Shown here piece after piece: positions 11,653 to 33,414 of a DNA stretch of 36,529 nt. A program made the position numbers and the translations under genes. The first letter of the stretch is position 1. Every line of letters starts with the position of its first letter. Source of the stretch: Candidatus Ornithoclostridium faecavium (GTDB taxonomy: Bacteria > Bacillota > Clostridia > Christensenellales > UBA3700); the NCBI GenBank assembly GCA_018714045.1, contig DVNX01000035.1, positions 1 through 36,529 on the forward strand, given 5' to 3'. The notes beneath the pieces were generated by a model. That model was not told where the DNA came from. It did not search any database and saw nothing but the letters and a program-made list of their open reading frames with translations.

Positions 11653-12168
11653 TCAGTTGTAGTAAGGGGTGACGGTGACTATAACGCTGCTGCCGCCCGC
11701 TCCGACGTACTCTATCTGCGTCGAAATGAGCTTTTTAGCCTCGCTGTCCACCTTTATCGTGATCTTTGCGTTTCTGGCGTTCTCGATATCGAGTACGGCT
11801 TTCGTGTTCTGGATATCAGCCTTATAGGTCGTGATATTGTCTTCGAAACTGGTTTGCTCGTTAGCGAGATAGTCAGTCGACAGATTAAGCGAAGTTCCGT
11901 TTTTCGAAAGATCGAGTTCGGGCGCTTCGATGCCGTCGCGCTGGATAATGACGCCGCCGACGCCTTTTTCCGTCTTGTATTCATAGAAGGTGACGCCGTC
12001 TTTGCTGACTTTTACGTACACGTCTCTGCCCGCCTCTCCGCTGGACGTTTTGAACGTAGCGAGATTCCATATCTCGTCGGTGGTTATCTTTACGTTACAG
12101 CCGACGAACGAAAGTACGAGCACAAGCGCCGTAAGTACGATCAAAAATGCTGTTATGGTTTTTTTCAT
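11653..12168 (-). CDS. Small lipoprotein, last gene of the giant surface operon
   Basis: A 171-aa protein of no recognised family. Residues 1-20 are a signal sequence with a basic start (MKKT) and a long hydrophobic core. FVGC with C24 is a slightly atypical lipobox, so it is probably lipidated and held on the outer face of the membrane. The mature part is predicted by pattern to be mostly beta-strands with alternating hydrophobic residues (VYVKVSKDG, ITIKVDSEAK, VIVTVTP). This recalls small lipid-binding or LolA/LppX-like folds, but that is a guess. It starts 14 bp after the stop of the 2210-aa gene, with GAGAGGTGA as ribosome site, and is followed by a terminator. It is therefore the fourth and last cistron. 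Confidence 0.8.
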   Translation of the reverse strand: MKKTITAFLIVLTALVLVLSFVGCNVKITTDEIWNLATFKTSSGEAGRDVYVKVSKDGVTFYEYKTEKGVGGVIIQRDGIEAPELDLSKNGTSLNLSTDYLANEQTSFEDNITTYKADIQNTKAVLDIENARNAKITIKVDSEAKKLISTQIEYVGAGGSSVIVTVTPYYN

Positions 12169-12182
12169 AGTTTATTCACCTC

Positions 12183-15100
12183 TCAGAATACGAACTTTTT
12201 CTTTGCGACTATTGCCGCAACAACTACAGCGAGCACGCTTGCCGCCGCAGCAGCCGCGCCCTTACCCGCAGCCTTTCTCGCGACGTTCTGAGCCGCGATG
12301 ACGTCGCCGTTTACCTCTGCGATCAGAGCGTTGTAAGACGATTGCAGTTTTTTGAGTTTAGCGCTGTCGATCGCCGCCTTATCGCCGTCCGCGAGCTTGT
12401 CGTAAGCATCCATCATAGCTTCGTACTTGTCGAGATCTGCCGCGGTAACGGTATCGCCGAAAGAGTTAAGAGCGTCGTTGAACGCCGCAGGGTCGCCGCC
12501 CGTAGCGATATTCTTTGTCACGACGTTGGATTCGCCTGAAGAAGCACTCTCTTTGATCTTGACGGATACGGAATATTCGGTATTCGCCTTAAGACCGCTG
12601 AGGGTATTGCTGTCCTGCCAGGTCTTGCCGCCGTCCTTGCTGTAAGCGTAAGAATCGTCGCCGTCAACGGTCACGACTATCCTGTTGTAGTAGACGGTAT
12701 AAGTTATATCGTCGGGATCGAGCACAGCCGCTACCTTTTTGCCTGTGGTGACGGTCATCGAGAACACTCCGGATTCTACATAGTTGTCGTCGCCTGCAAA
12801 CTTGACGTATACGGTATATTCTGTTTCAGGCATAAGACCCGTGATCGAATCGGTAGCGCCGTCCCAATCGCCTTCGGTAAGAGTGATAAGCACGGGATGT
12901 ACGCCGTTCTTATCGGTGATCGTAAATCCGTTCCAGAATGCGGTCACGGTGAGGTCGTTTCTGGTCGGAGCGTTTACGTTCGCCTTTGTGATCGTGTAGA
13001 CGAGACCTTCAACCGAGCCGGTGTAGTTGGAATTTTCGCCCGCGGTAACGGTGATCGAATAATTACCTGCGCCCTTTATTTCGTCAACGCTTTTGCCGTC
13101 TTTGGTTATCGTGAAGGAAACCTCTCCGTACTTCTTGTCAACGAGGCTTGCGAGGTCGACCTTAACGCCGTCGTAGACCTTACTGCCCGTAAACGAAACA
13201 TCAAGCTGAGCTTTTTCTACGGTGTAGGTCAGAGTCGCTTCGCCGAAGTAATTTTCGCTGTCGGAAGTGACTTTTACGGTATAGGTACCCGCGTCGACCA
13301 CGCTTTCGACCGCTTTACCGTCCTTGGTGATGACTACGGTCACGAGGTCGGACTGTACGTTGATGACGTTTATCGTCTTAGCATTGCCGTCGTAAACGGA
13401 GCTTTCCTCTTCGAGGCGAGCTACTTCGGCAAGATTTGCTGCGCCGACCGTAAGATCAGCCTTTGTGAAAGTCACGTTGTAGCTGCTGCCCGCGGGGCCG
13501 TTGAAGCCGAGGCTGAGAGAGCCTGCATATTCGCCGGGGAACAGTTCTGAAACGTTTTCGCTTCCGTCGTCGTAGATATAGTAAGGATCGAGGTCGTCGC
13601 CGTTGAACATCTCGTTATCAGAGGTGAAATATGCGCCTTCCTCAACAGGTACGATAACGCCCGTACCGTAAGCCGCTTTACCCGGCAGCACGGTCACTGT
13701 CACGTCGACCTTATCGATCGTGACGGTAGCGTCCTCGGTAAAGCTCTTTACAGAGTAGTTCCGGGTCGAGAAGCCCGTTACCTGCGCAGTATAGATACCT
13801 GCGTATACGGGTTCGCCGGTTATCGGCTGTCCGTCCTTCAGATACTGTACGGTAGCGGTAACGCCTTCGTCTCCCGCTATAAGACCGTTTATCGTCGCGG
13901 TGACGTGATGAGCGCCCTTATCGTAAGTCGCTGTCGCGGAAGTGAGCGTAACGTCTACCGCCTTGGGATTGACGGTAAATTCTCCGCTGTTCTCGACGAC
14001 AATGGTATAGTTGGTATTCGTCGCCGTCGCGCCGATGGTATAAGAGCCCGCCGCGAGGTTTGCGACGTCGGTATAAGTCTCGCCGTCCTTTGTGAGAACG
14101 TACGCAAGACCCAGATCATCGCCTTCGACTATGCTGCCTTCTGCGATAGCGTAGTCGCCTTCGCCGATCGCGAGAGTTCCGTCTCCGTAGATCTTATCTC
14201 TGTTGTTGAACGTCATTTTGAGTACTCTCGCCACACGGATCGCAGTACCCGTGTTGTACTCGAGATTATAATTAGATTCGTCTCCGCTCTGTAAAGTCGC
14301 GGTGATTTCAGCGGTATCGCCTACGTTTTCGCCGAGAACGGTCTCACACTTGAACTGGAAATTATCCTGTTCGCCTTCAGCGAAGCCGTCGCCGCCGTAA
14401 GTAACGCCTGCGGATACGAATTCGTTGCCGTATTCTACCTCAACGTCGACGGGAGTTATCTGTACGTTTCTCTTGTTCACGTCGAACTTGAGAGAGAATA
14501 TACCGTCGGGTTCGCTGGTCGCGGACTTATCTGCTCCTATATAGTAGACCTTATTCGAGTCTGCGGTAAGCTCGAAAGTCACGGTATTGCTGTCCGCAAC
14601 GTTTTTGAACTTGTAACCGCTTACGAGCCACTCGATACCGGGATTGTCCTCTTCGAGGTTGGTCGCTCTTACGGTAACGTTATAGTCGCCGCCGTAGTAA
14701 AGCGCGCTCGCTTCGAAAGACGCTCCGCTCTTAACGGGATAAACCGCGACTTCCGCTCCGTCCTTATCGGTAACGACTACTTCGAGTTGAAGTTCGAGAC
14801 CGGTTATCGTGCAGTAAGAATTGTCGCCTGCCTCGTTCACCTTGTTGATCTGATAGTTGGTGGCGTTCGGATTCACAAGGCTGGGGAGGAAGGTATACGG
14901 ATAGGTGCCTCTGACAGGGGTCTCCTCCATCGGGATATCTCTGAGATAGAACGTCAGCATATTTCCGTCTTCAGGCAGGAATTCGTTGCTGCCTTCAGCA
15001 TAATACCACATATTGGAGAAACTTTCGCCTGTTATCTCGTCAAAGTGCGTGCCGTAAGGAACCGAAATGTTTTTGATAACGATAGTGACTACTCTCTGTG

Positions 15101-18100
15101 TGATCTCAAGCGACCCGCCCTTGATATCGTAGTTGACGAAAAGTTCGGGAGTGCCTTCCGCAAAAGTGACCTCAGGCGAAACGATATAGCTGCCCGCGTC
15201 TCTTACGCCGTTCGTACCGACGGAGTAATCGCCCTCTGCGGTCGTACGGATATATTCGACGTTGCCGGTAAGAGCGTATTTACCCTTATCGCCTTCCGCG
15301 AGCTGGCTTTCGAGATCGCCGCCTTCGAGCGAAAGCGTAAAGGTCTGACCGTTGTATTCGGCGTAATATTCGCCGTTTTCTTCATTATATTCGAGACCTT
15401 CTCCGCTGAACAGCCAGGTAAGCGTAGCCTTGTTTATCGTAAACGCAAGCTGTCTGGTTCCGGGATTGCTCGCAGTGTCATAGTTTGCGTTCGTGTCGAT
15501 ATCCGCGCCTTTGGTCTGCTCTATCACAACGATATAGTTGCCTGCGTTGACGACAGAAGAAACGCCTTCAGAACCTTCAACGATCTTCCATTCGTCCGAC
15601 TCGTATACAGCGGGATATATCTTTGTTTCGAAACCTATAAAGCTGACGTCGATGTAACCTATGCCGGAATAATGAGCGGTAAAGCTGACTTCCTTGCCGG
15701 TATAAGCATAGTTGCCGTCTTCGTCGGGAGTTCCGCTTACGCGATTGATGCCGAACGATACCTGAGCAGGAGTAATGGTCACTTTGATCTTATGCATAAA
15801 TTCCTCGTAGTTGCTGACGTTAGCATAGATCATACAATCGTAAACGCCTGCATCGACGATCGCCGCCGGATCGTAACCTTCCGTCGTTTCGTCGTCCACG
15901 CGGTAAGGTCTGAAATAAACGTCGTATTCTACAACGTCTCCTATCGAAGCGTTGCCAACGCTGATGGGGTTCGTCTCAAGGTTGTAGAACTTATCGTAAT
16001 CGACGCCGAGGCTGTCGTAAACGAACGAATATTCTGAAGCGCCCGTATACTCAAGCTTAGCGGGATTGATCGTAAAGGAAAGCTCAGTGTCTCCCTCAAG
16101 CTCGTAGTTCGCCTTTGCAGAAGTCGTAAGATCTACGGTCATAACGTAATCGCCGGCATTACCGCTGGAATCGATAACGTTGTTTCTCTTATACGTGACG
16201 GATACCACCGCGCTCTGATCTACGCCGGGGATCTGATTTGCTATCGTAACGCCGGGAGCCTGGAATTCAGCGTTATAAGTAAACTGGGTAACGCTGTCGT
16301 CTATCGTAGAATTCAGGACTCTCTTCGTTATCGTAAAGTCTCTTAATATCTGATCGGACGAAAGCGCATAGTTAGCGTTGCTTATGCTTTCGATCTTTAC
16401 CCTGTAATTGCCCGCATTCGTAGCGTTTTCGGTAGTAGTCAGAGTTTCACCGTCTACCGTATAGTACACGAGCTTGGGCGTAACGGTATCCCCGCCGCAT
16501 ATCTCCTCACCGAAATTCACGGAGAATATCTTTGCCGCGTTGTCGTATATCAGCTCTTCAGGAGTCTTCTCAACGATAGAAGGAGTGATGATCTTCTGGG
16601 TTATCGTGTATACGTAATTTCTCGTAGTGACCTTTGTCTCTCCGAGAGCATCGGATACGAGAGCGTTGTCGTTCTTATAAGCGACGTAATTCTTACCGCT
16701 GCCGTCGGTCGCCGTATAAAAATAGCCTGCGCCTTCATCTTCGGTACTTCTTAAACTCATATACCATATGCCTACGTTTTTGGTCTGATTGTCACCGACA
16801 GCGATATCCGCGCCGCTTCCGTTCTTACGTATGACCCACTGCGCGCCGTCCGCCGAAGTAGCGACAGGCGAACCCGAATAATCGCTGCTCAGATAAAGCT
16901 GTACCGTGGGCGCCGCAAGAACGTTGCCGTCGTACGGTCCTTCGCTGACGTTGTACGTTCTCGTACCGACGCTTCCCGTAAGTTTGTCTTCGTATCCGAA
17001 GCCGCTTTCTCCGTCCACTCTGTAATAAGCCGAGTAACCGGTAACGAAATCGTAACGTCTGTTCAGCACGGCGTTGTTAGCGACGGTAACGGTAAATGTC
17101 TTTACAGCATCTTCGTAAGAAGATATGATCTTTTCAGATCCGCCCTCATTCTTTACGTTCCATGCCTCCGTCGTCTCAGTGGTCGTCTGGTCTCCCGAAG
17201 TAACGTGTTCTACATACTCCCACAATATTGCGCGGGAAGCAACGCTCGCGCTGTCGGTCGCGTCATACGTGACAGTGAGACCTTCTTCGCTGAATCCTAT
17301 ATCGACTTTCTTGTCTCCTGTGATATCCAGCCATTCCTGCCCGTCTTCCTTTATCCTGACGTTGGAAAACTCAATGCCTGCCGCAGAATAATTTACGTTC
17401 GTGTTGGAAGCGTCTTTAATATAAGAATAAGAAACCGCGTTGCCAGTGGGTTGAGTATCCTCGCTGTAAAGTTTATAAATACCGTGCAGGTAATCGCTGT
17501 TGAGAGCAGAAGCGGACTGTCCTTCACCGTACGAATATTTTCCCTTTATTCCGACAAGAGCTCCGTATACTGTAGTATTATCAGCCAACGTATAGTTGAT
17601 CGAACCGTCAACTATACCCCACATGGTAACAGATCCTGACCATGTGCTGACGATATTGTATATATGCGTATTACCTTCCGCTTTGAGCATGAAAAAGTCA
17701 GCCTGATTCTCAGAATCGGCAACGATACCGACAAGTCCGCCGGCGATGCCCAGTTTTGCGGAACCTTTGACTTGGTAATATTCGCTGCCGCCCGGATCGG
17801 CGGTAAGAGCGCCCGCACCCGAAATTGCGATATTCTTTATCGTATTGTTATTCTGAGCAATACCTATAAGACCGCCTATGACCGCCCTCGGAGTACCCTG
17901 ATTGCCGGTGTACCAGCCGCCTTCTTTACCTTCCGCCTTTATATAGATGCTTGTAGTCGGATCGATATACAGGCTGCTGTCGCTGATCGTACTTTCATAT
18001 ACGTAACCCGCAAGCGAACCGAAAGAAAGCGTAAGATCGTACACACGGCTTCTCGCACCTGCATTACCTTCAACCGGACCGCCTCCGTACGGATTGAGAG

Positions 18101-18815: not shown

Positions 18816-18852
18816 ACATTTCCCTCCGTAAACTGTTTTACAGTTACTTTTG

Positions 18853-18884: not shown

Positions 18885-21800
18885 TTAAATAATGTTGTAA
18901 CGGTTTTTGTTCTTCTTCTTGGACTTCATTACTGCCGCGACAATTACTCCCGCTATCGAAGCGACTATCAGTACGCAGCATATCGCAACGACAACGTACA
19001 TTGCTACGTTATTGTCTTTGGGCGGAGTAACGTTACCCATTGACGCGCCGCATTTATCGCATTTGCCGTCGCCGTCCGAGTCTACGTGATCGCACTTATC
19101 GTCAACGTCGCTGAGCTGAGTGCCGCACTTATCGCAGATACCGTCGCCGTTTTCGTCCGCGTGATCGCACACGATCTCTCCCGTACCTTGCGCAAGAGTG
19201 AGCTCTCCCACCGTTACGGCGCTGAGGTCGTAGTTGTCTCCCGCATCGTAAGTTACCTTATAAGTACCCGCGGGCAATCTTCCGAGCGCGTCGGGGAACA
19301 CTATCTTGTTATCCTGCCAGAAGGTAGGCTGGGCTTCTACGGTCTCGCCGTCCACGCCGGTAAACGTAACAACGAGTCTGTAAAGATTGGTATCCGAAGT
19401 AAGACCTTCTTCCGCCTGGATCTCATCGTATATCGACTTATCCGCTTCAGTGATCTTCTTGGGTACGATCGTGAAGCTGGTATCGTGATAATAGGTTTCG
19501 TAGTTACGCAGAAGTATCTCTATAGAACCGTTGTATTCTCCCACGTCGGTCGCGCTTGTCGCGTTTGCGCTCACGCTGAGGATCTCATCTTCGCCGTACT
19601 TGCCGGTGTTCAGCGTATACTTTATCGAATGTTCCTTACCGTCATACTCGATTTCATCAAGCATTATTCCGCCGGGGTTGGAAGAGTCGAACGCGACAAT
19701 ATCGTCGGGAGCCGGAGCCGCAGTGATTATAACGTATGCCGTAGTTTCGTAAGGCAGATAATTGTCGCCGCAAGAAACTCTCAGCCATACCTGGTTCCTG
19801 CCTACGCTGATGTAAGTCGGCACGTCTTCCGTGTAAGCGCCGATCGCGATCTTTCTGTATTCGACTTTAACGTCGGGATTGTTCTTTACGTTAGTGCCGC
19901 TTATGTCAGCCGCGAGAGATATCTCTTTGCCGTTGTACTGCTGCGAGATACCCGTTACGGTTTCTCCCTCGATAGCAGAACCGAAGATGACGCCCGTTAT
20001 CTCTGCGGGATCTATCTGTAAAGTCAGCTCTACCGATGATTCGTTGTAATTTTCGTTGCCTTCGTAAACGAGTCTGTACTTATAAGTACCTACGTTTTCG
20101 TATTTACCGTTGTTCGAAGACGCATCGAAATTCACGTACGACTGCTGAGCGTCGTCCCAGTACTGCAACACGATGTTTGCTCCGCTGACGTCTTTCTTGC
20201 TTGCAAGAGATTTGACCACAGCGTCGGAATATTTGATCATCTGCGCAGCTGCATTGTAAGTGGAAACCTGGCTTTCAACGCCGCTTATCGCGGTATCCGC
20301 TTTGACCACGTTGAACGCGATATAGCTGTCGAGACCCGTGCCTCCCTCTTTGGTGTACTCTTTTCTCGCGAACTTCTGCAGATCGGGATCGGTCTGCTGC
20401 TCGGGATCGAAAGTCACGCTTACGTAGTATTCGCCGACTTCGGTTATCTCAACGTTGGTACCGAGGAGCTGTATCGAATCCGCAAGTTTTTTGTAATAGG
20501 TTATCGTATATACGACTGTCTTTCCTGCGATCGGAGAGTTTTCGGGCAGATCGGGAATGTACGTTACCGCGCTGCCGTCGTTATACTGCACCGTCTTATC
20601 GGGTACGAGTATGTCGAGGTAAGTCGCCTGTATCGTGATCGTCTGCCTATACTGACCCTTTATCACATAGTTGCCGTCTTCTATGCTCGCTTCCGCGGTA
20701 TAAACGCCTATCTCCTTGATAGAGTTGAGCGTCGTTACCGATCCTGAGCTGTTTCTCCATGTTACCGTCGCATTCTGAACGTTGCCGTCGACGTCCGTGT
20801 ACTGAGCCGTCATCACGTGTTCTTCTGTATCGTACGGTATGGAGAACGAATATTTCGTCGACCCGTCGAGCGCAAACGTAAGTCTGACCTCTTTAGCCGC
20901 CACTATTATCGGTATCTCTCCGCTTATAGAAACGGTGTAGTTCAGACCAGCGTCTCCCGTATACGATCCGTCGTTATTTACCAGCTGAGCGAAATCGTCC
21001 ATCTGATATACGGGGCTGTCGATCTTGATCGCGTCTACGTAAGCGGTGTAGCTGCCGCCGACGTTCATATACTTTTCGTCATTCTTGCCGTTGCAATTGA
21101 ATCTGAACGACATCGTACCGCCCGACTCGTCGTTGTTTATAGTAACGACAAGTCCGTCGAACACGTCGCCGTATACCCAGTTGAAGGTCACGTCTGCTCC
21201 GTCGATGGTATAAGAGCCTTTACTCATCGTAATGTCTGCGCCTTCGCTGAATATCTGGTCGATATCGAACGCCATATTGATCCTGTCGATGCGCGTGGGC
21301 ACTGACAAGGTCTGCTGTACGCCGGTGTCTCCGCCGTAATTGATGGCTATGTTCATATCTATCGGGCTTTCCGACGTAGTCGTCATATATATTCTCAAAG
21401 CGCAACTTCCGGAATTCACCTCGTCGTATTCTGCAACGACCTGAAGCCATGAGGTTCTGAAATTACCCTGCTCCGATACCGCAAGGAAGTCGCCCGTATA
21501 ATGTGTGCCGCTTATGAGCGCAACGCTTTCGTCTATCGTAAAACCGAATTTAACGTTTTTGTTGAGTACGTCGGTTCCGTCGTAAGTCTTGCTGAAGAAA
21601 TCGACAAGATTTACCCCTTCGTACTGTCCGTTGACAAGCTGATCGAGGTTATAAGTCGTTTCGACCTGCTCTCCCGCTTCGTTTGTCGTCGTCTTAATTA
21701 CCGTGACATACTGCGCGTTGAACTGAATGTTCGCGCCGTTGAGGTCGACCGTAAACGTAGAGTACATATTAGTGGTAACTCTCATCACTACAGCTTCGCT

Positions 21801-24800
21801 CTCTTCAACGCCGTTCTTGAACATCAGGAACAACGCGGCGTTTTCCATTCCTTCAGGTATGATTATGCTCGCTTCGTTTCCCGAAACGACGCTGGTAGTG
21901 AACGTATACTGTTTCCACTCCGCGCCCTCGGGTACGTCAGTAGAATCCGCGGTAAGCTGAGTATCGTTGTCGATATAATACCAGACGTTGAGACCGGAGC
22001 CGCCGAACGTAGCGTTGAACTTGACCCTGATCCTGCTGAAAGCTTTGCCTGCGACAGATACGATATTGTAAGTCGTTTCAAGCGTCTTGTTACCGAAGCC
22101 TACGCTGTTGAACGTAAGTTCGACGCTGTCTATATTTACGCTTTCGCCGCCGTTGAGGATTATATTGCTGCTGTTACCCTTGACGTCGCTTACCGCGATC
22201 TGCAATCTTACCTGACCGGTAACGCGCACGACGATCACCGCATTGCCGTCACTGCCGACCGTGCTGTAATAATTCTCCTCAGGAACGTTTCCGAAAGTTC
22301 CGTTGGGAACAGCTTCCTGCACGCCGACAGACTGTGCGTTGACGCCGCTTCTGGATTCGTCTCCGACGTTAGCGACGGCGATTATCTGTTCGCCGAACCA
22401 TTTGCCGTTCCTGACTTCGTCATTGCTGACGGCAACGTATTTCGAAGGATCCGCGGCGATCATTCCGCCGATCTCGTCTATCGTCGCTTCACCGAACTGA
22501 TTTGCGAGATAATACGTTTCGTTTGTAAGCACAGGCACTGCGTTATCTACTTTTATCGTAACGGATTTTTTGTCTACCGCCGCCTTTGCAGTATCCGCGA
22601 CCTGAACGTAAGTGCCGTCTGCTTTCTTCACGAATGCGACCACATTGAATATCTGTCTGCCGTTCTTGGGGGTAGTCGTATTTTCAACGATAGTGAAATT
22701 ATTTGTACCCGACAGATTGAGATCTATTATCGAATTGTTTGTGCCGCCCTGATACTGATAAGCGTCTATTATGGTGGTATACGATGCAGAGCCGTTGGTC
22801 GTGAACTCTACGCCTATGCTCGCGCTGTTGACCCACGCCGTCTCAGTATAATTCAGCGACAACGTAGCCATAGAAACTATGACGGTGGATACATAGCCCT
22901 TATTCAGAGCAAGCGTTCTCTGCGCCGCGTCGTAATAGACGTATTCAGAGTTTGCCACGTCGTCGATAACCGCCATCGGCTGTATCGTATACGTTGCAGG
23001 ATATATCGTATCTTCCAATTCGACCTGAGATCCGCCTGTGGAATAAGACCACTGATAGTAAGCGGTATTGGGGTTGTTGATGCTGTCTCCGTTGGAATTC
23101 TTCAACGAAAGCGACGGCAACATATCCGAAACGTCGTCTCCGTTATACTGCCTCGTAGTCGCGTTTTTGTTATCCGTAACGGTGTAACTGTACGTCGAAC
23201 CGAACTTTACGACGTAAGAACCTTTCGTCATGTTAGCGTTGAAATAACGTACGAACGAGCCCACCTTTGACGTCGGTCTGATAACGACGCTGGCAATGTT
23301 ATCCGCAGATTCCGGCGCGATATCGGGACCTATGGTATAAATATCGGTGCCCCATATCATATTACCTACGTAAGAATCGTTGTACGTGGGCATATATCCG
23401 CTCGGATGCGAACTCCTGGTCACTGAATCCAGATCGACGCCCGTCGCGTTTACGTACTGATCCGCATTTGCCTGAACTCTCAGATATCCGTCTTCGAACG
23501 TTACCGAAACAGAGCTTTCGCCGCGCGACAAAGAGTGCGTCCAGCTGTAAACTTCAGACCAGTTGGAGGTCAGCACTGCGCTTCCGTTCGTCGAACCGTT
23601 ATAGTTTGAATGAGGCATATCGAGTGCAGTGTTGCCCGTCTCGTATTTATAGTTGTAAGTGAACACTATCATGTCCTGCTTGTCGCTTCCCTGGTCAGCC
23701 GATTTCAGGAAATCGAAAGGCATACCTGTTGCTTTCCTTGCCGACGTCATGTAGTCGGAAGTATGGGACATATAAGTGCCGCTCGCATAAGAATCTCTTC
23801 TGATACCCTTCCAGTTGGAGATTATACCCTTGACCTGGTTTGCACCCATGTCCTGAGGGGTTACGTAGCTGTATCTGTACAAAGCCTGCGACTGAATATA
23901 AAGCTGGAATTTACCCGTGGTAACGCCGCCGGCAAAACTGATACAGTAATTGGTGCTGACGCCGGGGTAATCTGCACCTCTCATCGCCCAGCTGTTCACC
24001 TCTCCGTTGCCGTCTATATAGCAGTATGTGATCTGGCTGTTGTTACCTCTTATCCAGCCGGTGATACCGCCCGCGAACGCCGCGCTGTAAGCTGCAGAAA
24101 AACCGGCGTTCCACGCTCCGTCCGCCTGAGCCCAGATCGTGTTGCCGATATACATATAGCAGTTGTTGATCTTACCGTATCCCATATTCGCGCCTGCGAT
24201 ACCGCCTACCGAAGCGCAGTTTTCAAACGCATTTGCAGGATAATCGTAGTTTGCCGTTCCTGCATGAGACTTCGCGTTGCCGGTAAATATCGACTGCTGA
24301 TTGACGTAAACGTTGTCTATCGTGCCTATATTGATACCGGTGACGATACCGAAGCCGTACGGCACGTCGGGATTGGACGCAGAGTCGAGAGAAGCGCCGT
24401 CGACGGGTTCGCCGCCCGATTGAGTGACGTTGGTCATCGCGCTGCCCGAAGCGGAATAGTTTATGGTCATATTCGCTATCGTACCTGCGTTTACGCCCAC
24501 GACGAGACCCATACCGCGCATACCGTTGCCGTCGGTTCCGGAGAAGTTGTCTGCCGAATCGCCGAGGTCGTTCTGGGTAACCTTATAGTATGCGTTGTTG
24601 TTGTCCTGTTTCTTACCGTTGCCTCCGCCGGTGCTTGCGGTGAGATTTATGTTGAGCTGATAGCCGTTACCGTCGAGTATACCCACGAACTTCTGAGTAC
24701 CGACGTCATCCGCTATACTGCTCTGATTCCAATCGATGTTCTTTGTGAAAACAATGATGGTATTTGTTCCTGCGGTTCCGGCTGCGGTAGCGGTTTCCAA

Positions 24801-25097
24801 CTCCCTTTTAAGTTCGTCGGACGAACTTACCCAGGCTACTCTGTAATTCGTGTTTCCCAGCAGTCCCCATCTTTCAAGAACGGCATTGTCGCCGCCGGAC
24901 TGAGCGAGATGTTCAACCTCGCCCACTCCGTGGTCACCTATCGTTGCGTTTTCGACTTCCTCTACAGAGATCGTCGCCGCTTCCGTCTTGAGAACGTCGT
25001 CGTTCCCCAACACGGTAAACAGTACTGTTGCAAGCAATGCGACTATCACCAGAAGAACTACCGATACGGTAAATTTGTTTCTCTTAATTTTCTCCAT
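18885..25097 (-). CDS. Giant surface protein with beta-helix, Ig-like modules, metal-site repeats and C-terminal membrane anchor
   Basis: A 2070-aa exported protein. A basic start and hydrophobic core (residues 9-31) form a signal sequence, perhaps cleaved near TEAA (38-41). About 138-420 is a beta-helix-like region with GLUG motifs (GLVVGVNAGTIANM, GIVTGINIGTIDNV, VGGIAGANMG). The long middle is beta-rich, with Ig-like and MBG-like modules toward the end. Residues 1977-2017 carry two copies of CDHxDxxGDGxCDxCG, which combine an EF-hand-like acidic loop with a CxxC pair. A transmembrane helix (about 2030-2057) and a basic tail (KSKKKNKNR) end the protein. There is no LPXTG. The ATG is 1 bp after the preceding stop, with GGAGG inside the end of that gene, so translation is coupled. 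Confidence 0.88.
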   Translation of the reverse strand: MEKIKRNKFTVSVVLLVIVALLATVLFTVLGNDDVLKTEAATISVEEVENATIGDHGVGEVEHLAQSGGDNAVLERWGLLGNTNYRVAWVSSSDELKRELETATAAGTAGTNTIIVFTKNIDWNQSSIADDVGTQKFVGILDGNGYQLNINLTASTGGGNGKKQDNNNAYYKVTQNDLGDSADNFSGTDGNGMRGMGLVVGVNAGTIANMTINYSASGSAMTNVTQSGGEPVDGASLDSASNPDVPYGFGIVTGINIGTIDNVYVNQQSIFTGNAKSHAGTANYDYPANAFENCASVGGIAGANMGYGKINNCYMYIGNTIWAQADGAWNAGFSAAYSAAFAGGITGWIRGNNSQITYCYIDGNGEVNSWAMRGADYPGVSTNYCISFAGGVTTGKFQLYIQSQALYRYSYVTPQDMGANQVKGIISNWKGIRRDSYASGTYMSHTSDYMTSARKATGMPFDFLKSADQGSDKQDMIVFTYNYKYETGNTALDMPHSNYNGSTNGSAVLTSNWSEVYSWTHSLSRGESSVSVTFEDGYLRVQANADQYVNATGVDLDSVTRSSHPSGYMPTYNDSYVGNMIWGTDIYTIGPDIAPESADNIASVVIRPTSKVGSFVRYFNANMTKGSYVVKFGSTYSYTVTDNKNATTRQYNGDDVSDMLPSLSLKNSNGDSINNPNTAYYQWSYSTGGSQVELEDTIYPATYTIQPMAVIDDVANSEYVYYDAAQRTLALNKGYVSTVIVSMATLSLNYTETAWVNSASIGVEFTTNGSASYTTIIDAYQYQGGTNNSIIDLNLSGTNNFTIVENTTTPKNGRQIFNVVAFVKKADGTYVQVADTAKAAVDKKSVTIKVDNAVPVLTNETYYLANQFGEATIDEIGGMIAADPSKYVAVSNDEVRNGKWFGEQIIAVANVGDESRSGVNAQSVGVQEAVPNGTFGNVPEENYYSTVGSDGNAVIVVRVTGQVRLQIAVSDVKGNSSNIILNGGESVNIDSVELTFNSVGFGNKTLETTYNIVSVAGKAFSRIRVKFNATFGGSGLNVWYYIDNDTQLTADSTDVPEGAEWKQYTFTTSVVSGNEASIIIPEGMENAALFLMFKNGVEESEAVVMRVTTNMYSTFTVDLNGANIQFNAQYVTVIKTTTNEAGEQVETTYNLDQLVNGQYEGVNLVDFFSKTYDGTDVLNKNVKFGFTIDESVALISGTHYTGDFLAVSEQGNFRTSWLQVVAEYDEVNSGSCALRIYMTTTSESPIDMNIAINYGGDTGVQQTLSVPTRIDRINMAFDIDQIFSEGADITMSKGSYTIDGADVTFNWVYGDVFDGLVVTINNDESGGTMSFRFNCNGKNDEKYMNVGGSYTAYVDAIKIDSPVYQMDDFAQLVNNDGSYTGDAGLNYTVSISGEIPIIVAAKEVRLTFALDGSTKYSFSIPYDTEEHVMTAQYTDVDGNVQNATVTWRNSSGSVTTLNSIKEIGVYTAEASIEDGNYVIKGQYRQTITIQATYLDILVPDKTVQYNDGSAVTYIPDLPENSPIAGKTVVYTITYYKKLADSIQLLGTNVEITEVGEYYVSVTFDPEQQTDPDLQKFARKEYTKEGGTGLDSYIAFNVVKADTAISGVESQVSTYNAAAQMIKYSDAVVKSLASKKDVSGANIVLQYWDDAQQSYVNFDASSNNGKYENVGTYKYRLVYEGNENYNESSVELTLQIDPAEITGVIFGSAIEGETVTGISQQYNGKEISLAADISGTNVKNNPDVKVEYRKIAIGAYTEDVPTYISVGRNQVWLRVSCGDNYLPYETTAYVIITAAPAPDDIVAFDSSNPGGIMLDEIEYDGKEHSIKYTLNTGKYGEDEILSVSANATSATDVGEYNGSIEILLRNYETYYHDTSFTIVPKKITEADKSIYDEIQAEEGLTSDTNLYRLVVTFTGVDGETVEAQPTFWQDNKIVFPDALGRLPAGTYKVTYDAGDNYDLSAVTVGELTLAQGTGEIVCDHADENGDGICDKCGTQLSDVDDKCDHVDSDGDGKCDKCGASMGNVTPPKDNNVAMYVVVAICCVLIVASIAGVIVAAVMKSKKKNKNRYNII

Positions 25098-25098: not shown

Positions 25099-28000
25099 TC
25101 AGTTAACCTCCGATGCGTCCATATTCGTTCCGGATACGCCCAGTACGCATACCATACCCTTCATGGTGTATTCGTAATAATTACCGCCTCCGTCCGTAAA
25201 CGTTACGGGAACGTCGTATGCGTTTTCTCTTGCCAGAACGTTGGCAGGACTGTCTGCAGGATTGTCTTCAAGGTAATACAGGGATACGCTTTCAGTAACA
25301 TTCTGCGGCATACCGGTAAAGTCTGCGTAAACGTTGATCTGACGCGTCGTGTATACTTTGATATAATTTACTACTTTGTCGCCTTCCGTCACAGTGACGA
25401 TGTCGTCTGCGATATCTTCAGTGATCTCTCCTTCGTAAAGTTCGAGATCGCCTTCGCACCAATAGGTCATCATCAGGTCTACGTATCCTTCTCTGAGTCC
25501 TCTGATCTCTTCGGAGAAGTTTGCGAAATAGACGCCGCTGTTCGTGTCGTACATTACCGCCATGAAATCGTAGCCGTAATATGCGTAAGACAGATCGAGC
25601 TGACCGTCTTCTTTCGTCGCGATCTTCTTCATTCTGACAGGCACCGTTACGTTCTGATAAGTGCCGTCCGACTTAGCGACTTTCGCGACCGCTTCGCCTT
25701 CAGAACCCGACGTAAACGTTATTCCGGTGAAATCCCATTCAGCGACGTTGACGCTTACGACGTTGCTTTCCGCCTCTTCGGCTTCAGGCTCTTTTGCCAC
25801 TCTGTCGAATACAACGTCCAGCGTAGTGCCGAATTCTTCATACGTTCTGACGGTCTGACCGTTCTCGGTAACGTTTACGTATCCGAACGGGTCGAGGACG
25901 AGTTCGTCGTACGCATAAACGGGATCGTTCTTTGCAACGACTTTGTATCTGACCGTATAATTGTTGAGGCCGTCCTTTGTCAGCATAACGGTTATCTCGC
26001 GCACGTCGCTGCCTGCCATCGAGAACTCGATATCCTCGACGCCTAACCACTTATAAACGCCGATCTCAGCCGTGCTGCCGTCCGTATAAGTAACTTCTAT
26101 ACTCGACGGGAACGCGTCCTTGCCGAGGTAAAGCACCTGTATCGGATCGACCTCGTAATAATCGTCGCCGCTGCCTGCGCCGGGCATGTTGAGTTTTTCG
26201 ATCTCCATGCCGTCTACGAACACGCCTACGTTTGTCTTCTGCAGGAAGTTCGCTTCGAGCGTCGCGGGATCGATACCGTTTGCGGTAGCCGCAGCGCTGA
26301 ATTCGTCCGTCATGAATCCGATCTCTATCTGCCACTGTTCGCTGTAGCTATCGTAGTCGGGCACATAGGTCAACGGATCGAGGAGATTGCCGCCGCCGTC
26401 ATACCAGCGTATCGGCATTTCCATTACCGCATTGGAAGAGAACTTGATCCATGCCTTCGACGGGAAGTAAGCAAGTTTGCCTGCCTCGTCGAGAGCGTTG
26501 TATTCGTACGGATGTATAGTAAAGATCTCTTCAGTCAGTTCTTCGTCGAAATAGACCGCTATGATGGAGTTCTTTACTACGTTGACGGTGATATCCTTGC
26601 TCCACTTGAAGTAACCGCCTTCGAGAGCGTCGTAACCTTCTGTCTCAGGATCGACACCGCTTCTCGCGCCGTAATAAGACGTGTCGAGGCTGACCGTGCC
26701 GCCGTATCTGCCTTCGCTCTGATATGACAGCTTCTGTTCGTTGAACTGGTTGCCTTCAGTATCCGTGCTTATATCGATAAGTACGTTGACCTGTTCGTTG
26801 TAAGACTGGATCTTTCCGTCTCTGTCCTCATAGTAGTAAGCTACCGCGGTGTCGGGTTTGATCGTTTCCTCGCTGTAACCTATCATATTGAGGAAATAGG
26901 TGTAAGGATTGATCTCCAGAGAGTCGAGCGTACTGCCCAGACCCAGCGCGGAAATGACCTTAGTCTTAATGTTTACCGTCAGGGTGACCGACTGTGCCGC
27001 CGCCGTCGACTGAGCTATAAGCGCTTCAACCGGAACGCTGACGTAAGTCATATCGTTCTGAGCCTTATTCTCTATCGCCTCTGCGGACTCTGTCGGGACT
27101 ACCCACTGATCTACCGCTATTCTGGTCGTCGCGCCGTCGGAATATCTGATGTACAGATATTCGGGCGTGAACTGATCGATGGTTCTGTTGCTTGCGGTAA
27201 AGTCGTAAAGATCGATTTCGTAAGTTCTGGGTTCACTGCCGCCTCCTACGATATCCGCGACCGTACTGTCGATGAAGTTTACCGTCATCGGCATTTCAAC
27301 GCCATTCCTGAACTTGACGTTCACCTGCTTGGAATGTGCGGTAAACGTGTTCGCCGAATAGCTGAACGTATCCATCTCCTCAGTACTGATATCGCGCGTT
27401 TCTCCCGTCACGAACTCTATCGTGATATCGTCCACGATAGCGTCGTAAGCGTGCGTTTCGATCGGGATTATCGATCTGATCTCGTTGGCAGGCATGACGT
27501 TGACTGCTATTTCGAGAGTCTTTTCTTCTCCGCTGAACGTAGCTGATCCGATGACGTATACCGTTGTTGCCGCTGTATCGCCTCTCGCCGCCGCGTCTTT
27601 AGCTATCTGCCATACATTGAGCAAGTTTACCGTACTCGACGTCAGCTTCTCGCCCTTGACCAATTCACCGCTGCCGTTCTTTGTCGCGATATAGAACGTA
27701 ACGTCTGATTTCTGGACGGTAGTGTTGTACTGATAACGCGCGGTCTTGTTGGCAAAATACTTATTGTACAGCTCGCTGTAAGACGCCGCGCTTGCCGCGG
27801 ATATCTCCTCGGGAGTCGTCGCAAAGAAGTTGCCGCTGTATTCATACGGCTCGTAATTGACTGAAAGCGTTATATCTCCCCAGTCTACTACGCCAGGCGT
27901 GCTCTCGCCGCTGACCGTATTGTCCTCAGAGCCGACGGAAGCCGACTTGTTGAACAGGTAGATCTCCGTCTTATAGCTCGCGTTTCTCGTGCCTGCAGTA

Positions 28001-31000
28001 TACTCAGTCGTTCTTTCGCCGCCGTTATAAGTGGTGTTAGAAAGCACCTTTCCGTCATCGTCAACGACCGCCTGATTGTCGTCGTATCCCTTTATGTAGA
28101 TATTTGAGAACGTACCGTCAAGCGTCGTGATACCCACGTTGAGTCTGTTGAATACCGGGAGCGGCAACAATCTCATAAGGATATCGTGGATAACATCGTA
28201 AGTGCTGTTAAGAAGCGTATCCGTGATGAGCGGCGCAAGCGCACTGCTGACCATGTTGGTGACGACTTCTCTGAGCATCGGAGTCAGTTGAGCCTTGAGC
28301 GTCTGCCAGAAGCCTCTGCTGTCGTTGTTTACTCTGTCCCAGTTAACGTTCGCGAGATAGTTGTTTCCGAACATATCGGGAGCGAGTTCTGCAAGATTCA
28401 GGATAGTGTTGGGTCCGAAGATAAGGGACATAACGCCGTCAATCAGCTTGTTTATCTCGTAAGGATTGAACGAGACGTCTATGTTGAACACGCCCGCAGA
28501 CGTAAGTCTGACGTCAATGCCGCCGTTGAGCAGTTTGAGAACGTCGAGGTCCGCAAACAGTTCCGCAAACGGGCTGGGCTCTTCGGTCGTATCTCCTTCC
28601 GCAAGCGCGACCTCTTCTGCTCCGCCTTCGCTTGCCGTGGAAATTTCGTTGGTGCCGTATGCCGCCGCGTCTATCTGATCGATAAGACCCTGGAACAGAT
28701 TTCCGAGAGTGGTGACAAGATCCAGATCGATGTCTATCGCCACGTAATCGCCCAGGTCGACGACGAGCGAAATATTGTTCTTCGCAAGATATACAGACAT
28801 CTTGCCTGTATTATAGTTGAGCACGAGATATGCCAGCGCCTTCGTGTTGGACGTTGAAGTCGTGTCGTTGAAGTCGCTGTCCGAATTGACTCTCGCGATA
28901 GTCACGAGGAATGCTCCCGCCGGGATCGTCGGGGTCTTCGCGGCGTCGCTGAGAACTCTCTGCGACTTCAGCTTTTCTACCGAAAGTCTGAGATACTTCG
29001 CAGAACCGCCTGTATCGATATTGTTGCTGAGCACGTCTATCGATACGGCTATATCGAGGTTGTCGAGGAGGGTCTTAGCCATCGAATCGCCCGTAGAAGC
29101 GTCAATGTCTGGCACAGAAGTGTTGACGATGAAATCGTCGTCCGTACCATGCTTACCTACCTGCAGTTTGAATTCGGATCTGAAATCGACTACGTCGCTG
29201 AGTCCGAGGTCAAGGTTGATCTCTCCGTCGACCATATCGAGTTCGAGACCGAGATCTATATCGAATCCGAGGCCGATGCCGAGCAGCGAAGAGAATATCT
29301 TGTCGATGGTCGGAGCTGTCAGATCAACGAACAGACTCACGTCTTCCGCTCTGACGCCGGTAAGCAGCATCATTATGAGATCCATCGTGATGACGCTTCC
29401 CTCTTCCGCCGCCGGTTCAGCCATATGCAGTCCCTGAGCGATGTCTCCTGCGACCTCGTCAAGCTGAACGTCGTCTTCCGGATTAAGCAGACCGTTGATT
29501 ATATCCGTAAGATTGAGATTGCCTATATCCGCTATCATTTCGTCAATATAACCCATCAGCAACGATACGAGATTGCTGTTGGAAAGCTTGAACGCGAACA
29601 GTCCCAGACCGGAAAGATCGACGACTATGTCGCCGCCCGTGATACCGAGGCTGATTATCTCTTTTTCACCGTAATTGAACGCGAGAAGCAGCTTCGAATT
29701 GGTGACGACTTCAAGGTCGAGATCCCACTTGAGCGTAAGCGTAGAAACGCTGTTCCAGTCATCGAGATACATATCTATCGGCAAGTCGAGGTATTGTCCC
29801 TGAGATACCAATATATTATTGATTATCTTAGTAAAATCTATATGACTGTCGTAAGTAGCCAGATCCATGGTTACGTCTATCGACAGGTAACCGACAGTGT
29901 CGATGATCGCCTTGATGAGATCGTCGGTATAGCTTTCGACTTCAGCCTCTACCCTGTTTTTGGTTTCCGTGAGCTTATCGCGCACATAACCTACCGTGAG
30001 CGGATATTCTTTTGTTCCTATTTCGATCTCCATCAGCAGGTTCTGCGGCTGATCCGCTTCTTCAGGCTGCATGAGCTCTCCGCTTGCCGTTATCGTCCAG
30101 CCTTCGGTACGGGTTATATCCATATCGAGCGCGAGATCGATCGTGCTGAGATCGAAGCCGCCCAGGTCTACGCCCATCTTGTTGAGCAGCATACCGACAG
30201 CGCCGAGGGTGAGCGACGCGTAGATCTTTTCAGCATTCAGACCGAGTACTATCGAACCGAATTCCGAAAGAGTCGTGCCCGCAGCAGTTCCGTCGCTTTC
30301 CGCGAACAGAGCGCTCTCGGAAGCATCTCCGGAAGTGCTGTCGTTTCCTCCGAACAGCGACATGATATCGAACTCGAGATCGAAATCGCTCAGCAGCTGA
30401 TCGCCGATCTTTATGTTATCGAACAGATCGAGAAGCGTCTGAACAAAGTCGAATTCGAGACTGAGTTTGGGCAACGTGATATTCATGATCTTAACGTTGG
30501 ACATATCGAGAAGGATATGCGGTTTCCATTCGCCGGTACCGCTGCTGGTATCCTGGGTATAGAAGCCGTAAACGCCCAGCATAACCGTACCCTTATCCAT
30601 ACCCGTCATTCCGCCGACGTTTATGTCTTCAAGAGCGGTGATCTCTATAGCAAACATAGAGTTTGCCCTCGTATTTCTGTCTATAGAGATCATTATCGAA
30701 AGCCCTACGTTCATATAAAAGTCCTCTGTGAATTTCCATTCGAGAGGTACTCCTTCGAGTTCTTTGAGTCCGAGACCTTCGAGGAATTTACCTATCGCGT
30801 AAGTTCCTTCGTTGAAAGTCACCTTCGCTCTCGCGTTGAGATCGACGCCCGAAAGCACCGAACCGAGCAGATTGCCGAGGTTGCTCTCGTAATTGGTCTG
30901 CGCGAGCTTTTCGTCGATATACTCCGCGAGAGAGGTCGCGTCGGAATCGATGAATTCGTTCTGAGTGAAACCGAGCATGAAGTTGTGAAGTTTAAGTCCG

Positions 31001-33414
31001 ACTTCTATCGGATCGCTCGTAACTATATTGCCGTTTTCGTCAACGACGTTATTTCCTTCGGCATCCTTGTCGGGAACGCCTACCGTAGCGCTTATCTCAA
31101 CGCTTTCGAGTCCTTTGTCGAACATGTTGAGCGCTACTTTACCGTCGAGGGCGATGGGCAGTTCTATCGGATTTTCACCCATGAACTGGTTGATCGCCTC
31201 AAACAGTTTCTGATTGACTTCGACTACTATCTGATCGTCGTTAGCGTACAGGCATTCTTCGAAGCCTACGATGCTTGCGACCGCGGTGATCAGCGTCTGG
31301 ATGGTCGGGCTGATATAGACGACTTCTTCGCCTGTCGATTCGTCTTCAGCGACCGTTACGATATCCCTGCCCGACTGCGAGAGAGCGAGCTCTTTAGCGC
31401 CGGTCTTGTAATCGTCCCAGTTCGTGCCGAAATATTCGTCAATCGCCGTAGTTACCATCTCCACGAGATATGAAACTACGCCTTTGAGATTTATTCCGTC
31501 AATTCTTATATTGTCCGCCTTCCAGTAATTGGGCATCATACTGTTGAGCGATACGTAAAGAGAACCGTTGCGGTAATATATACCCAGAAGCATCGGGACC
31601 TTATCGTTAAGGATAATGTTTCCGGATTTATCCACAGCGTATATTTCGAGTGATATGAGATTGTTGTCGTCCTCGCTGTTAAGATAATTAAGGTCGAGGT
31701 CGACGTTTGCCTTGATCCTGTATCCGAATTCGGAATGCAGGACGAGAGTGTCCTCGGGCAGACCGATGTCGGGAGCAAACAGATTGACGAGTTTAGCTAC
31801 GTCGAGTCCGTTTTCGTCGCTGTACAGCTGCAAATCGACGTCGAACTGGATATTGCTGAGCGAGAAATCTCTGGTCTCATCGTTTTCGATATCGGCGATA
31901 ACGTCGGCGAAATCTATCGGATCCGTCGTTCTGATATCCGCCTTGTCGACCATCCAGTTGAACACTTCGCCGTCAACGTCGTTGTTCGGATCGTTGTCTT
32001 CCGCTACGAGTTGCATGCTTGTAACGACCGTCTTGTTTATCGTCTCGTCGTACTTCGTATCGGCATACATATAAACTTTAAGCTGAGGAATGTTGCTGTT
32101 CAGCCAGTCGAACAACGGAGTAAGATTGAGGTTGATGCCTATCAGCGAGCCGATATCGAACATGCCGATCAACGTATTGATACTGCTGACCAACGAATTC
32201 AGCTTGATCTCAAACTGATAGGATTCGTTGATGATCATGTTGTCGGCAAGTCTCTTCGTTGCGGTATAATACGGAGAATTGAACAGCAGGTTGATGAGCG
32301 TACCGGCTATATCTATGCCTCCGAGTTTGTCCTTGAGCATATCGAGAAGTTCGTCCACGTCGATATCTACCAGCAGATCGCCGAGGAACGCTACTACGTA
32401 ATCGGGTTTGATGTCGCTGAAATGCACAAGCGGATTGCCGTCGCCGAGGTCCATATACATATCGTTTCCGATAAAGTAGACCGCGAACGTCGTCTTATCC
32501 AGCATGGTCACCCTGAACATGAATTCGTTCTTACCGCCGACAGTGAAGTTACCCTGCATATCTATCTGCGCGGTACCGCTGTCTGTAGTCATAGTCGTCT
32601 GCAGATCGAGGGTAGCCGTCTTTTGCGGATCGGGCAACAGACCGAAAATGGTTTCGAGCGAGCTCTTAGCGTTCTTGTACTCTGTTATGTACTCGTACTC
32701 CTTATCTCCCTCGTCTTCCACCCATTTAGCGTAAAGCGTAAGGTCTTTAGTGACGTTGTACGGGAACGACACGGGGTTACCGACCAGACGGCTGCTGGTG
32801 TACCAACCGGCGAAAACCATGCCGCTCTTTGTCGTAACGGGCAATTCTTCGATCCTCGTACAAACCATTTCTTCTACCGGCGTACCGCCGTTCGTAACGA
32901 ACTTCACGGTAAAGCCGCCTTCACCGCCCGTAGACCATCTTGCATAGAAAGTCGTGTCCTTTTCAAGAACGTACGGATAGGTGACGGCATTCTTGTAACT
33001 CGAATCGAGATACCATCCAATGAAAGTATAACCCTCCCTGTCCGGCGGCGTAGGCGCAAGTTTAAGCTTCGCAACAGACTGGGTCGTATTGTCCGAACCC
33101 GGGCTGACGAGCGTAAGCGTAAACTTCTGCAGATACTTGGCGTACAAAGTTATATCCGACTCCAGAGGCATCGGGAAAGTCGCCTTGTTCTGCAATTCCG
33201 CATCGGTATACCAATCGTCAAACTCGTAGCCGTCTTTAGTCGGAGCTACGGGCGCGACTTCCAGATCCGTAAGATTGCGGACTTCTGTTTCGTCGCCGAG
33301 ATTAAGCGTTACGGCGTAGGTTTTTTCTTCGGGCGTACAGCCTATCACCGAAACGAGAACCAATGCGAGGATAACAATTAAAACGGATGTTACCAGCAAT
33401 GCTTTCTTTCTCAT
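25099..33414 (-). CDS. Giant lipoprotein with InlB-type repeats and repetitive beta/amphipathic modules, first gene of the surface operon
   Basis: A 2771-aa secreted lipoprotein. The signal sequence ends in the lipobox VIGC (C26). Residues 33-231 hold three InlB B-type (Listeria-Bacteroides) repeats, each with a GYxFxGWY-like turn and a closing LYAKY/FYARW/LYAKW. About 240-1690 is a long region where beta-strand runs (GNDMYMDL, NGSLYVSL, GGDIVVDL, TGKMSVYL) alternate with Leu/Ile/Asp-rich amphipathic helices. From about 2030 to 2560 Ig-like units share the motif YxDGxTxxIxVxxW. No C-terminal anchor is present, so lipid is its only anchor. The ATG at 33414 is chosen for GGGAG upstream and the lipoprotein N-terminus; 15 codons upstream are rejected. 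No known family covers the middle region as far as can be judged by eye. Confidence 0.88.
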   Translation of the reverse strand: MRKKALLVTSVLIVILALVLVSVIGCTPEEKTYAVTLNLGDETEVRNLTDLEVAPVAPTKDGYEFDDWYTDAELQNKATFPMPLESDITLYAKYLQKFTLTLVSPGSDNTTQSVAKLKLAPTPPDREGYTFIGWYLDSSYKNAVTYPYVLEKDTTFYARWSTGGEGGFTVKFVTNGGTPVEEMVCTRIEELPVTTKSGMVFAGWYTSSRLVGNPVSFPYNVTKDLTLYAKWVEDEGDKEYEYITEYKNAKSSLETIFGLLPDPQKTATLDLQTTMTTDSGTAQIDMQGNFTVGGKNEFMFRVTMLDKTTFAVYFIGNDMYMDLGDGNPLVHFSDIKPDYVVAFLGDLLVDIDVDELLDMLKDKLGGIDIAGTLINLLFNSPYYTATKRLADNMIINESYQFEIKLNSLVSSINTLIGMFDIGSLIGINLNLTPLFDWLNSNIPQLKVYMYADTKYDETINKTVVTSMQLVAEDNDPNNDVDGEVFNWMVDKADIRTTDPIDFADVIADIENDETRDFSLSNIQFDVDLQLYSDENGLDVAKLVNLFAPDIGLPEDTLVLHSEFGYRIKANVDLDLNYLNSEDDNNLISLEIYAVDKSGNIILNDKVPMLLGIYYRNGSLYVSLNSMMPNYWKADNIRIDGINLKGVVSYLVEMVTTAIDEYFGTNWDDYKTGAKELALSQSGRDIVTVAEDESTGEEVVYISPTIQTLITAVASIVGFEECLYANDDQIVVEVNQKLFEAINQFMGENPIELPIALDGKVALNMFDKGLESVEISATVGVPDKDAEGNNVVDENGNIVTSDPIEVGLKLHNFMLGFTQNEFIDSDATSLAEYIDEKLAQTNYESNLGNLLGSVLSGVDLNARAKVTFNEGTYAIGKFLEGLGLKELEGVPLEWKFTEDFYMNVGLSIMISIDRNTRANSMFAIEITALEDINVGGMTGMDKGTVMLGVYGFYTQDTSSGTGEWKPHILLDMSNVKIMNITLPKLSLEFDFVQTLLDLFDNIKIGDQLLSDFDLEFDIMSLFGGNDSTSGDASESALFAESDGTAAGTTLSEFGSIVLGLNAEKIYASLTLGAVGMLLNKMGVDLGGFDLSTIDLALDMDITRTEGWTITASGELMQPEEADQPQNLLMEIEIGTKEYPLTVGYVRDKLTETKNRVEAEVESYTDDLIKAIIDTVGYLSIDVTMDLATYDSHIDFTKIINNILVSQGQYLDLPIDMYLDDWNSVSTLTLKWDLDLEVVTNSKLLLAFNYGEKEIISLGITGGDIVVDLSGLGLFAFKLSNSNLVSLLMGYIDEMIADIGNLNLTDIINGLLNPEDDVQLDEVAGDIAQGLHMAEPAAEEGSVITMDLIMMLLTGVRAEDVSLFVDLTAPTIDKIFSSLLGIGLGFDIDLGLELDMVDGEINLDLGLSDVVDFRSEFKLQVGKHGTDDDFIVNTSVPDIDASTGDSMAKTLLDNLDIAVSIDVLSNNIDTGGSAKYLRLSVEKLKSQRVLSDAAKTPTIPAGAFLVTIARVNSDSDFNDTTSTSNTKALAYLVLNYNTGKMSVYLAKNNISLVVDLGDYVAIDIDLDLVTTLGNLFQGLIDQIDAAAYGTNEISTASEGGAEEVALAEGDTTEEPSPFAELFADLDVLKLLNGGIDVRLTSAGVFNIDVSFNPYEINKLIDGVMSLIFGPNTILNLAELAPDMFGNNYLANVNWDRVNNDSRGFWQTLKAQLTPMLREVVTNMVSSALAPLITDTLLNSTYDVIHDILMRLLPLPVFNRLNVGITTLDGTFSNIYIKGYDDNQAVVDDDGKVLSNTTYNGGERTTEYTAGTRNASYKTEIYLFNKSASVGSEDNTVSGESTPGVVDWGDITLSVNYEPYEYSGNFFATTPEEISAASAASYSELYNKYFANKTARYQYNTTVQKSDVTFYIATKNGSGELVKGEKLTSSTVNLLNVWQIAKDAAARGDTAATTVYVIGSATFSGEEKTLEIAVNVMPANEIRSIIPIETHAYDAIVDDITIEFVTGETRDISTEEMDTFSYSANTFTAHSKQVNVKFRNGVEMPMTVNFIDSTVADIVGGGSEPRTYEIDLYDFTASNRTIDQFTPEYLYIRYSDGATTRIAVDQWVVPTESAEAIENKAQNDMTYVSVPVEALIAQSTAAAQSVTLTVNIKTKVISALGLGSTLDSLEINPYTYFLNMIGYSEETIKPDTAVAYYYEDRDGKIQSYNEQVNVLIDISTDTEGNQFNEQKLSYQSEGRYGGTVSLDTSYYGARSGVDPETEGYDALEGGYFKWSKDITVNVVKNSIIAVYFDEELTEEIFTIHPYEYNALDEAGKLAYFPSKAWIKFSSNAVMEMPIRWYDGGGNLLDPLTYVPDYDSYSEQWQIEIGFMTDEFSAAATANGIDPATLEANFLQKTNVGVFVDGMEIEKLNMPGAGSGDDYYEVDPIQVLYLGKDAFPSSIEVTYTDGSTAEIGVYKWLGVEDIEFSMAGSDVREITVMLTKDGLNNYTVRYKVVAKNDPVYAYDELVLDPFGYVNVTENGQTVRTYEEFGTTLDVVFDRVAKEPEAEEAESNVVSVNVAEWDFTGITFTSGSEGEAVAKVAKSDGTYQNVTVPVRMKKIATKEDGQLDLSYAYYGYDFMAVMYDTNSGVYFANFSEEIRGLREGYVDLMMTYWCEGDLELYEGEITEDIADDIVTVTEGDKVVNYIKVYTTRQINVYADFTGMPQNVTESVSLYYLEDNPADSPANVLARENAYDVPVTFTDGGGNYYEYTMKGMVCVLGVSGTNMDASEVN

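Follow-up and report, generated by a model that had tools for sequence, protein, structure and literature searches.

Known systems and the locus

Several described systems come close in one respect or another to the locus dealt with here. LolA, LolB, LprG, LppX and RseB each have one domain per chain, a curved sheet with helices, and three of them, LprG, LppX and LolB, are lipoproteins. Among bridge-like lipid transfer proteins (VPS13, TamB/AsmA), the length of VPS13 varies by repeat number. Sortase-anchored adhesins combine InlB and MBG modules with a signal, a C-terminal helix and a basic tail, and the SaeRS regulon of S. aureus places surface proteins under two-component control. The present subject, a locus of four genes (A to D) for three giant proteins and one small lipoprotein, lies in a 36,529-nucleotide stretch, termed the window, of contig DVNX01000035.1 from Candidatus Ornithoclostridium faecavium (source assembly 1.71 Mb, 91% complete). 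What is new is the core of A as a repeat chain with a predicted LolA/LprG-like fold, and the belonging of D with C. The reading preferred, to which we give an even chance, is that A to D are co-transcribed under the neighbouring two-component system and form a sortase-independent, membrane-tethered apparatus, in which A would bind amphiphiles and pass them on as a lipid-anchored chain of cups of LolA type. The genes, and the hairpin behind the last, are:

25099..33414, minus strand: gene A, a 2771-residue lipoprotein (ATG at 33414, stop at 25099)
18885..25097, minus strand: gene B, 2070 residues, with N-terminal signal, C-terminal helix, basic tail and Cys-rich DGxCDxCG motifs before the helix
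12183..18815, minus strand: gene C, 2210 residues, with MBG domain, C-terminal helix and KKK tail (ATG at 18815)
11653..12168, minus strand: gene D, a 171-residue lipoprotein, very likely the partner of C
11562..11588, minus strand: terminator-like hairpin with T run, from a hairpin scan

A first-pass annotation, made from the letters of the window, had described four same-strand genes of these lengths with intergenic gaps of 1, 69 and 14 bp, and the open reading frame coordinates agree. Longer GTG-start forms of A (2786 residues) and C (2232 residues) are also listed; the ATG start of A has GGGAG ahead of it, and the surrounding sequence is kept in close relatives. The terminator that had been placed after D is present as a hairpin and T run, and since a scan over 11000-22000 gave 10 hairpins against 11.1 by chance (no excess), the call depends on the single strong stem at 11588-11562. 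The opposite strand also has long open frames, which probably just shadow the coding ones.

Gene order in relatives

The core of A was matched in 44 of the 46 genomes of its family, which is one of Christensenellaceae-type bacteria (the misses being G023 and G029), a level at which paralogues count, and a search of a 5.8-billion-protein database gave 39 homologues, the only source-named one of which is called 'hypothetical protein'. Synteny was examined in 39 of the 46 genomes (left out were G003, G023, G029, G032, G063, G065 and G067), with G012 in the table for its paralogous locus only. B follows A in 32 of them, in the three genomes of genus g5 by a weak N-terminal match only, and contiguous A-B-C-D, with D either separate or fused to C, is present in 25 (eight of the window's genus, two of g2, 13 of g4 and two of g6). 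Several genomes outside the 25 stop at a contig or piece end; bases of D are masked in G061, only paralogous loci are present in G012, and g5 shows A and B only. The four genomes of g3 have a different form, with an A of ~7,100-7,400 residues, one B/C-like protein of ~4,340-4,480 residues (cut at the piece end in G034) and then D, which is fused to it in G027. One such g3 gene for A (L153/L154, L155/L156, L157/L158, L159) takes up ~1% of a 1.7-Mb genome.

Identity in A drops to ~22-40% while gene order persists, and A length varies strongly between genera. The comparison of relatives that the first-pass annotation had proposed gives the same order in these 25 genomes and no scattering of the genes. 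Joint production of the four proteins, as had been claimed, is favored by the conserved order in many relatives and by the occurrence of a promoter box ahead of A only (see below); a single mRNA may span the genes.

It is very improbable that order alone is conserved, with no task shared by the four proteins. Flanking housekeeping-type genes, an HI0933-like gene after the C/D end (28 of the 39 genomes) and one for a FAD-dependent protein, are also kept beside the locus, so general synteny contributes to the A-D order. Against this explanation speak the fusion of C and D in two genera, the box ahead of A only, and the paralogous loci, where A-type genes again stand beside genes for large partners anchored by helices, in some cases together with D-like genes. 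The paralogous giants of the window's genus (L098/L099, L100, L101, L169), which are without the box, are either a pair of 3390 and 3091 residues or proteins of 2424-2616 residues with C-like and D-like genes.

The core of protein A

Protein A divides as follows, the boundaries of the core being approximate:

33337..33414, minus strand: signal peptide and lipobox VIGC, with a similar start with Cys in relatives
32683..33336, minus strand: three InlB/Flg_new repeats (PF09479) and linkers, by Pfam
27925..32682, minus strand: core, residues 245-1830, predicted LolA/LprG-like from self-comparison, models, fold searches and module profiles
32682-31855, minus strand: module m1
31854-30880, minus strand: module m2
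30879-29926, minus strand: module m3
29925-29065, minus strand: module m4
29064-27925, minus strand: module m5
25495..27327, minus strand: C-terminal repeats, residues 2030-2640, by self-comparison; Ig-like Big_4 in some homologues

Self-comparison reveals residues 245-1830 (~1,590 residues) to be a tandem module chain, with five modules in the A of the window, nine in a paralogue and 20 matching stretches in a relative of ~7,100 residues. By module profiles (20 rows including the P2 and P3 paralogues, with G014 and G022 outside the set), the modules follow one another from m1 to a final m5 across large divergence; because P2 and P3 are among the rows, part of their own module match is by construction. 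For distant paralogues the best match lies in the m3-m5 core.

A model of a 1001-residue stretch of A has a predicted local distance difference test (pLDDT) score of 68, and one of m4 by itself 55; given the poorer single-module model, the module cuts may miss true domain borders, or neighbours may exchange strands. Fold searches with these models returned LolA/LprG-type lipid-binding clams with modest Z at modest pLDDT, the matches spanning residues 23-334 and 339-609 of the longer model, i.e. m3 and m4, with m1, m2 and m5 outside. For that model the most probable Foldseek match is 4egd_A, the staphylococcal SAOUHSC_02783 / Csa1 protein (probability 0.99), whose chains in the matches listed are of ~160-230 residues with no giant chain among them, unlike A. 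The Foldseek list for m4 has LolA and, below it, MHC/CD1-type chains at probability <=0.25, and RseB is among the fold matches of the A models. A LolA/LprG-like fold is predicted on this basis for the core modules, which would share the curved sheet with helices of LolA and its kin and differ in numbering five or more per chain.

None of 34 A members matched a Pfam family of LolA type up to E 5; a search of the PDB with a sequence profile of A gave no hit up to E 1. Sequence similarity inside the LolA fold superfamily (CATH 2.50.20) is very low (PMC6363788), and a Pfam match is not required for membership. TAM/AsmA and VPS13 had been considered for A from its repeat pattern; the fold searches returned LolA-type matches instead. 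Bridge-like proteins share with A a long repeat chain, but theirs is one of beta repeats with a continuous hydrophobic groove, where the fold searches suggest separate clams for A, and it links two membranes; A is not known to reach a second membrane. In open-licence papers neither an A-D system nor giants with LolA folds in tandem were found described.

Searches of the four proteins with Pfam and NCBIfam put only two domains above cut-off, InlB/Flg_new in three stretches of A (PF09479, 107.7 bits, cut-off 27, E 3.1e-31) and MBG in C (PF18887, 30.2 bits, cut-off 25), both of which had been named at first pass. The GLUG motif named with them was not recovered, being listed neither for B (up to E 1) nor for C (up to E 0.01). 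Ig-like domains, also named, are not above threshold in any protein of the window, but have a counterpart in Big_4 (PF07532), precomputed on nine of the 39 A homologues, and in the internal repeats that self-comparison shows at A residues 2030-2640. The accompanying remark that such modules are common in adhesins fits the InlB repeats but not A as a whole, which, with ~1,590 residues in a predicted LolA/LprG-like chain, is not mainly an InlB/Ig adhesin.

Nevertheless, an adhesin or matrix operon is the alternative with the most in its favor, and a real if lesser possibility. A, B and C would then be long structural spacers as well as adhesins, and the LolA-like modules a mere stable, ligand-free building block comparable to Ig/MBG stalks. 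The InlB and MBG domains, Big_4 in the homologues just mentioned, the acidic composition of the A core (isoelectric point 4.05) and the strong length differences between genera are all as would then be expected. What plain spacers would not need is the retained m1-m5 order with m5 last over large divergence, or the best match of distant paralogues in m3-m5, and known members of the predicted fold bind hydrophobic ligands, as the A modules may do.

D as the likely partner of C

Homologues of D stand directly after C-type genes both in the main locus and in paralogous loci (L100, L101, L169), and in 14 genomes, 13 of g4 and G027 of g3, C and D are one protein (loci L058-L063, L157 and L184-L190; the D of G061, with masked bases in the frame, is not counted). 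The fusion runs from C through a membrane helix, a basic loop and a second hydrophobic segment to D, and in 14 of 14 there is a lipobox at the end of the second segment (FAGC, FAAC, FTGC, FVGC, LAGC or MVGC). From the sequences, it is very likely that C and D function as partners. The second segment with its lipobox would place D outside again, and processing by Lgt and LspA within the polyprotein is predicted, making the fusions candidates for a bacterial polyprotein cut by LspA. A search of open-licence papers found no description of an internal lipobox. When D was compared with the A modules by profile, the signal peptide was the sole match, and a shared fold is accordingly not claimed for D.

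Anchoring without sortase

The N-termini of A, MRKKALLVTSVLIVILALVLVSVIGC, and D, MKKTITAFLIVLTALVLVLSFVGC, both contain a lipobox after a hydrophobic segment, as bacterial lipoproteins do, and LspA is encoded by the source genome (and found in 42 of 45 family genomes, this one included). B and C have one hydrophobic segment at the N-terminus and another at the C-terminus followed by a basic tail. A motif scan found nothing LPXTG-like in A, B, C or D, and sortase (PF04203) had no match in any of the 45 family genomes searched, a control search being positive in three of 14 genomes (B. subtilis, C. glutamicum and L. lactis). Every element of the anchoring described at first pass is thereby borne out: lipoboxes on the first and last proteins, signals, C-terminal helices and basic tails on the middle two, no LPXTG, and a mixture of lipid and helix anchors in agreement with the missing sortase. 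With no sortase match in the family genomes, such anchoring is the expected mode and not a peculiarity of this locus. In this the A-D proteins differ from sortase-anchored InlB/MBG adhesins, which they otherwise resemble in their modules, in the signal and in a C-terminal helix with a basic tail.

Just ahead of the membrane helix of B lie two DGxCDxCG-like, Cys-rich motifs (window 19038-19169); relatives have matches to them in several other large frames.

Upstream repeats and likely control

The two-component genes and the sites upstream of A are:

35363..36037, minus strand: OmpR-type response regulator gene, 224 residues (Pfam Response_reg and Trans_reg_C)
33994..35286, minus strand: histidine kinase gene, 430 residues, two hydrophobic segments by eye (HisKA and HATPase_c)
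33604..33621, minus strand: TGTAAAA-N4-TGTAAAA direct repeat with WalR-type spacing, in 17 of 29 A genes
33497..33512, minus strand: direct repeat TTAAG-N6-TTAAG across the -35 region, a likely binding site of a response regulator, in 25 of 29 A genes
33481..33486, minus strand: -10-like CAATAT, 10 nt after the TTAAG box, at a similar position in relatives, by consensus only

Both repeats are exact, have an 11-bp periodicity and are common to the window and six close relatives. Dinucleotide shuffles (300 rounds) gave a mean of 0.10 and a maximum of 2 genes for the TTAAG repeat and 0.003 for TGTAAAA, and neither repeat occurs upstream of 35 B or C genes or of five paralogous giants (the 29 A and 35 B/C genes were hand-listed as those with upstream sequence at hand, four of the 35 being below the full stretch). 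A -10-like hexamer is often present 10-16 nt after the TTAAG box of A genes.

Genome-wide, the source genome has two TTAAG-N6-TTAAG boxes (reversed-pattern control, one), of which one precedes A and the other (G000:C71:20625-20640, L192) precedes the gene for a 990-residue lipoprotein (L194:5570-8563, minus strand) beside what we take to be a glmM-like gene; orthologues of this lipoprotein carry the box in G005 and G012. In eight further genomes there are 20 boxes versus 45 for the reversed control, so that the count is uninformative and the argument depends on box position. The 22 boxes of the nine genomes are distributed as seven before A, three before orthologues of the 990-residue lipoprotein, two before other lipoproteins, one before the regulator and nine elsewhere. 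In G002 and G010 the only box is that before A, and G012, without the main operon, has its only box before the lipoprotein orthologue.

The box is likely, from its shape, an OmpR-type response-regulator site, which the adjacent regulator would bind. The SaeR site of S. aureus is GTTAAN6GTTAA (PMC5083920), so that SaeRS too acts through directly repeated TTAA with an N6 spacer; the box at A-D is nevertheless a different one, and the best solved relative of the adjacent regulator is DrrD (1kgs). WalR was considered because of the TGTAAAA repeat, the WalR consensus being TGTWAH-N5-TGTWAH (PMC9210968). Three more OmpR-type regulators are encoded in the source genome. Upstream of A, and on the same strand, kinase and regulator genes adjoin the locus; across the 39 genomes a regulator gene, with or without a kinase, is just upstream of A in 24.

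This proximity, the WalR-type repeat in A promoters and RseB among the fold matches would also suit cell-wall stress surveillance, in which the modules would be RseB-like sensors of lipid or wall damage that pass their signal to the adjacent kinase. However, in six of the genomes that have the operon (G013, G018, G033, G062, G064 and G068) a regulator was matched but no kinase, and such large proteins are unusual as sensors, which leaves this explanation improbable.

Proposed working of the apparatus

In the preferred reading, the kinase would read a signal at the membrane and the response regulator would bind TTAAG-N6-TTAAG, turning on A-B-C-D as well as the 990-residue lipoprotein encoded at another place in the genome. 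A, lipidated at Cys26, would be kept in the membrane, and its five modules, ending with m5 and followed by the Ig-like repeats, would extend through the wall. B and C, for want of sortase, would be retained by their C-terminal helices, and D would be a lipoprotein working beside C, in what may be a complex of all four proteins; where D is the tail of C, it would be lipidated and then freed at the internal lipobox by Lgt and LspA. Lipids, lipoglycans or lipoproteins would then be gathered by the cups or handed on between membrane and surface, a role suggested by the predicted fold of A.

An extension of this, speculative and rather unlikely, is that A is a prokaryotic, wall-spanning counterpart of lipid bridges: a covalently joined relay of LolA clams, its length set by module number (five, nine, perhaps 15-20), that moves lipids or lipoglycans from membrane to surface in a one-membrane bacterium, with the C-D polyprotein, cut at its internal lipobox, giving helix-anchored giant and lipoprotein in an exact 1:1 ratio. 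The open questions touched are those of large surface structures without sortase and of the lipid route to the outside of a one-membrane envelope, for which the locus is a testable object, having a conserved gene set, a likely on-switch, a genus-dependent chain length and a fusion lipobox that predicts a specific cut.

Downstream neighbours

Downstream of the operon are the HI0933-like gene, that for the FAD-dependent protein and one for a BspA-type leucine-rich repeat protein (PF13306, window 6519-8126), the last also kept downstream in many relatives; LRR_5 matches occur on nine contigs of the source genome. Between D and the HI0933-like gene there are short tandem repeats with GCCCGGTGTGACCGGGAGCATGA-type units (window 11129-11364).
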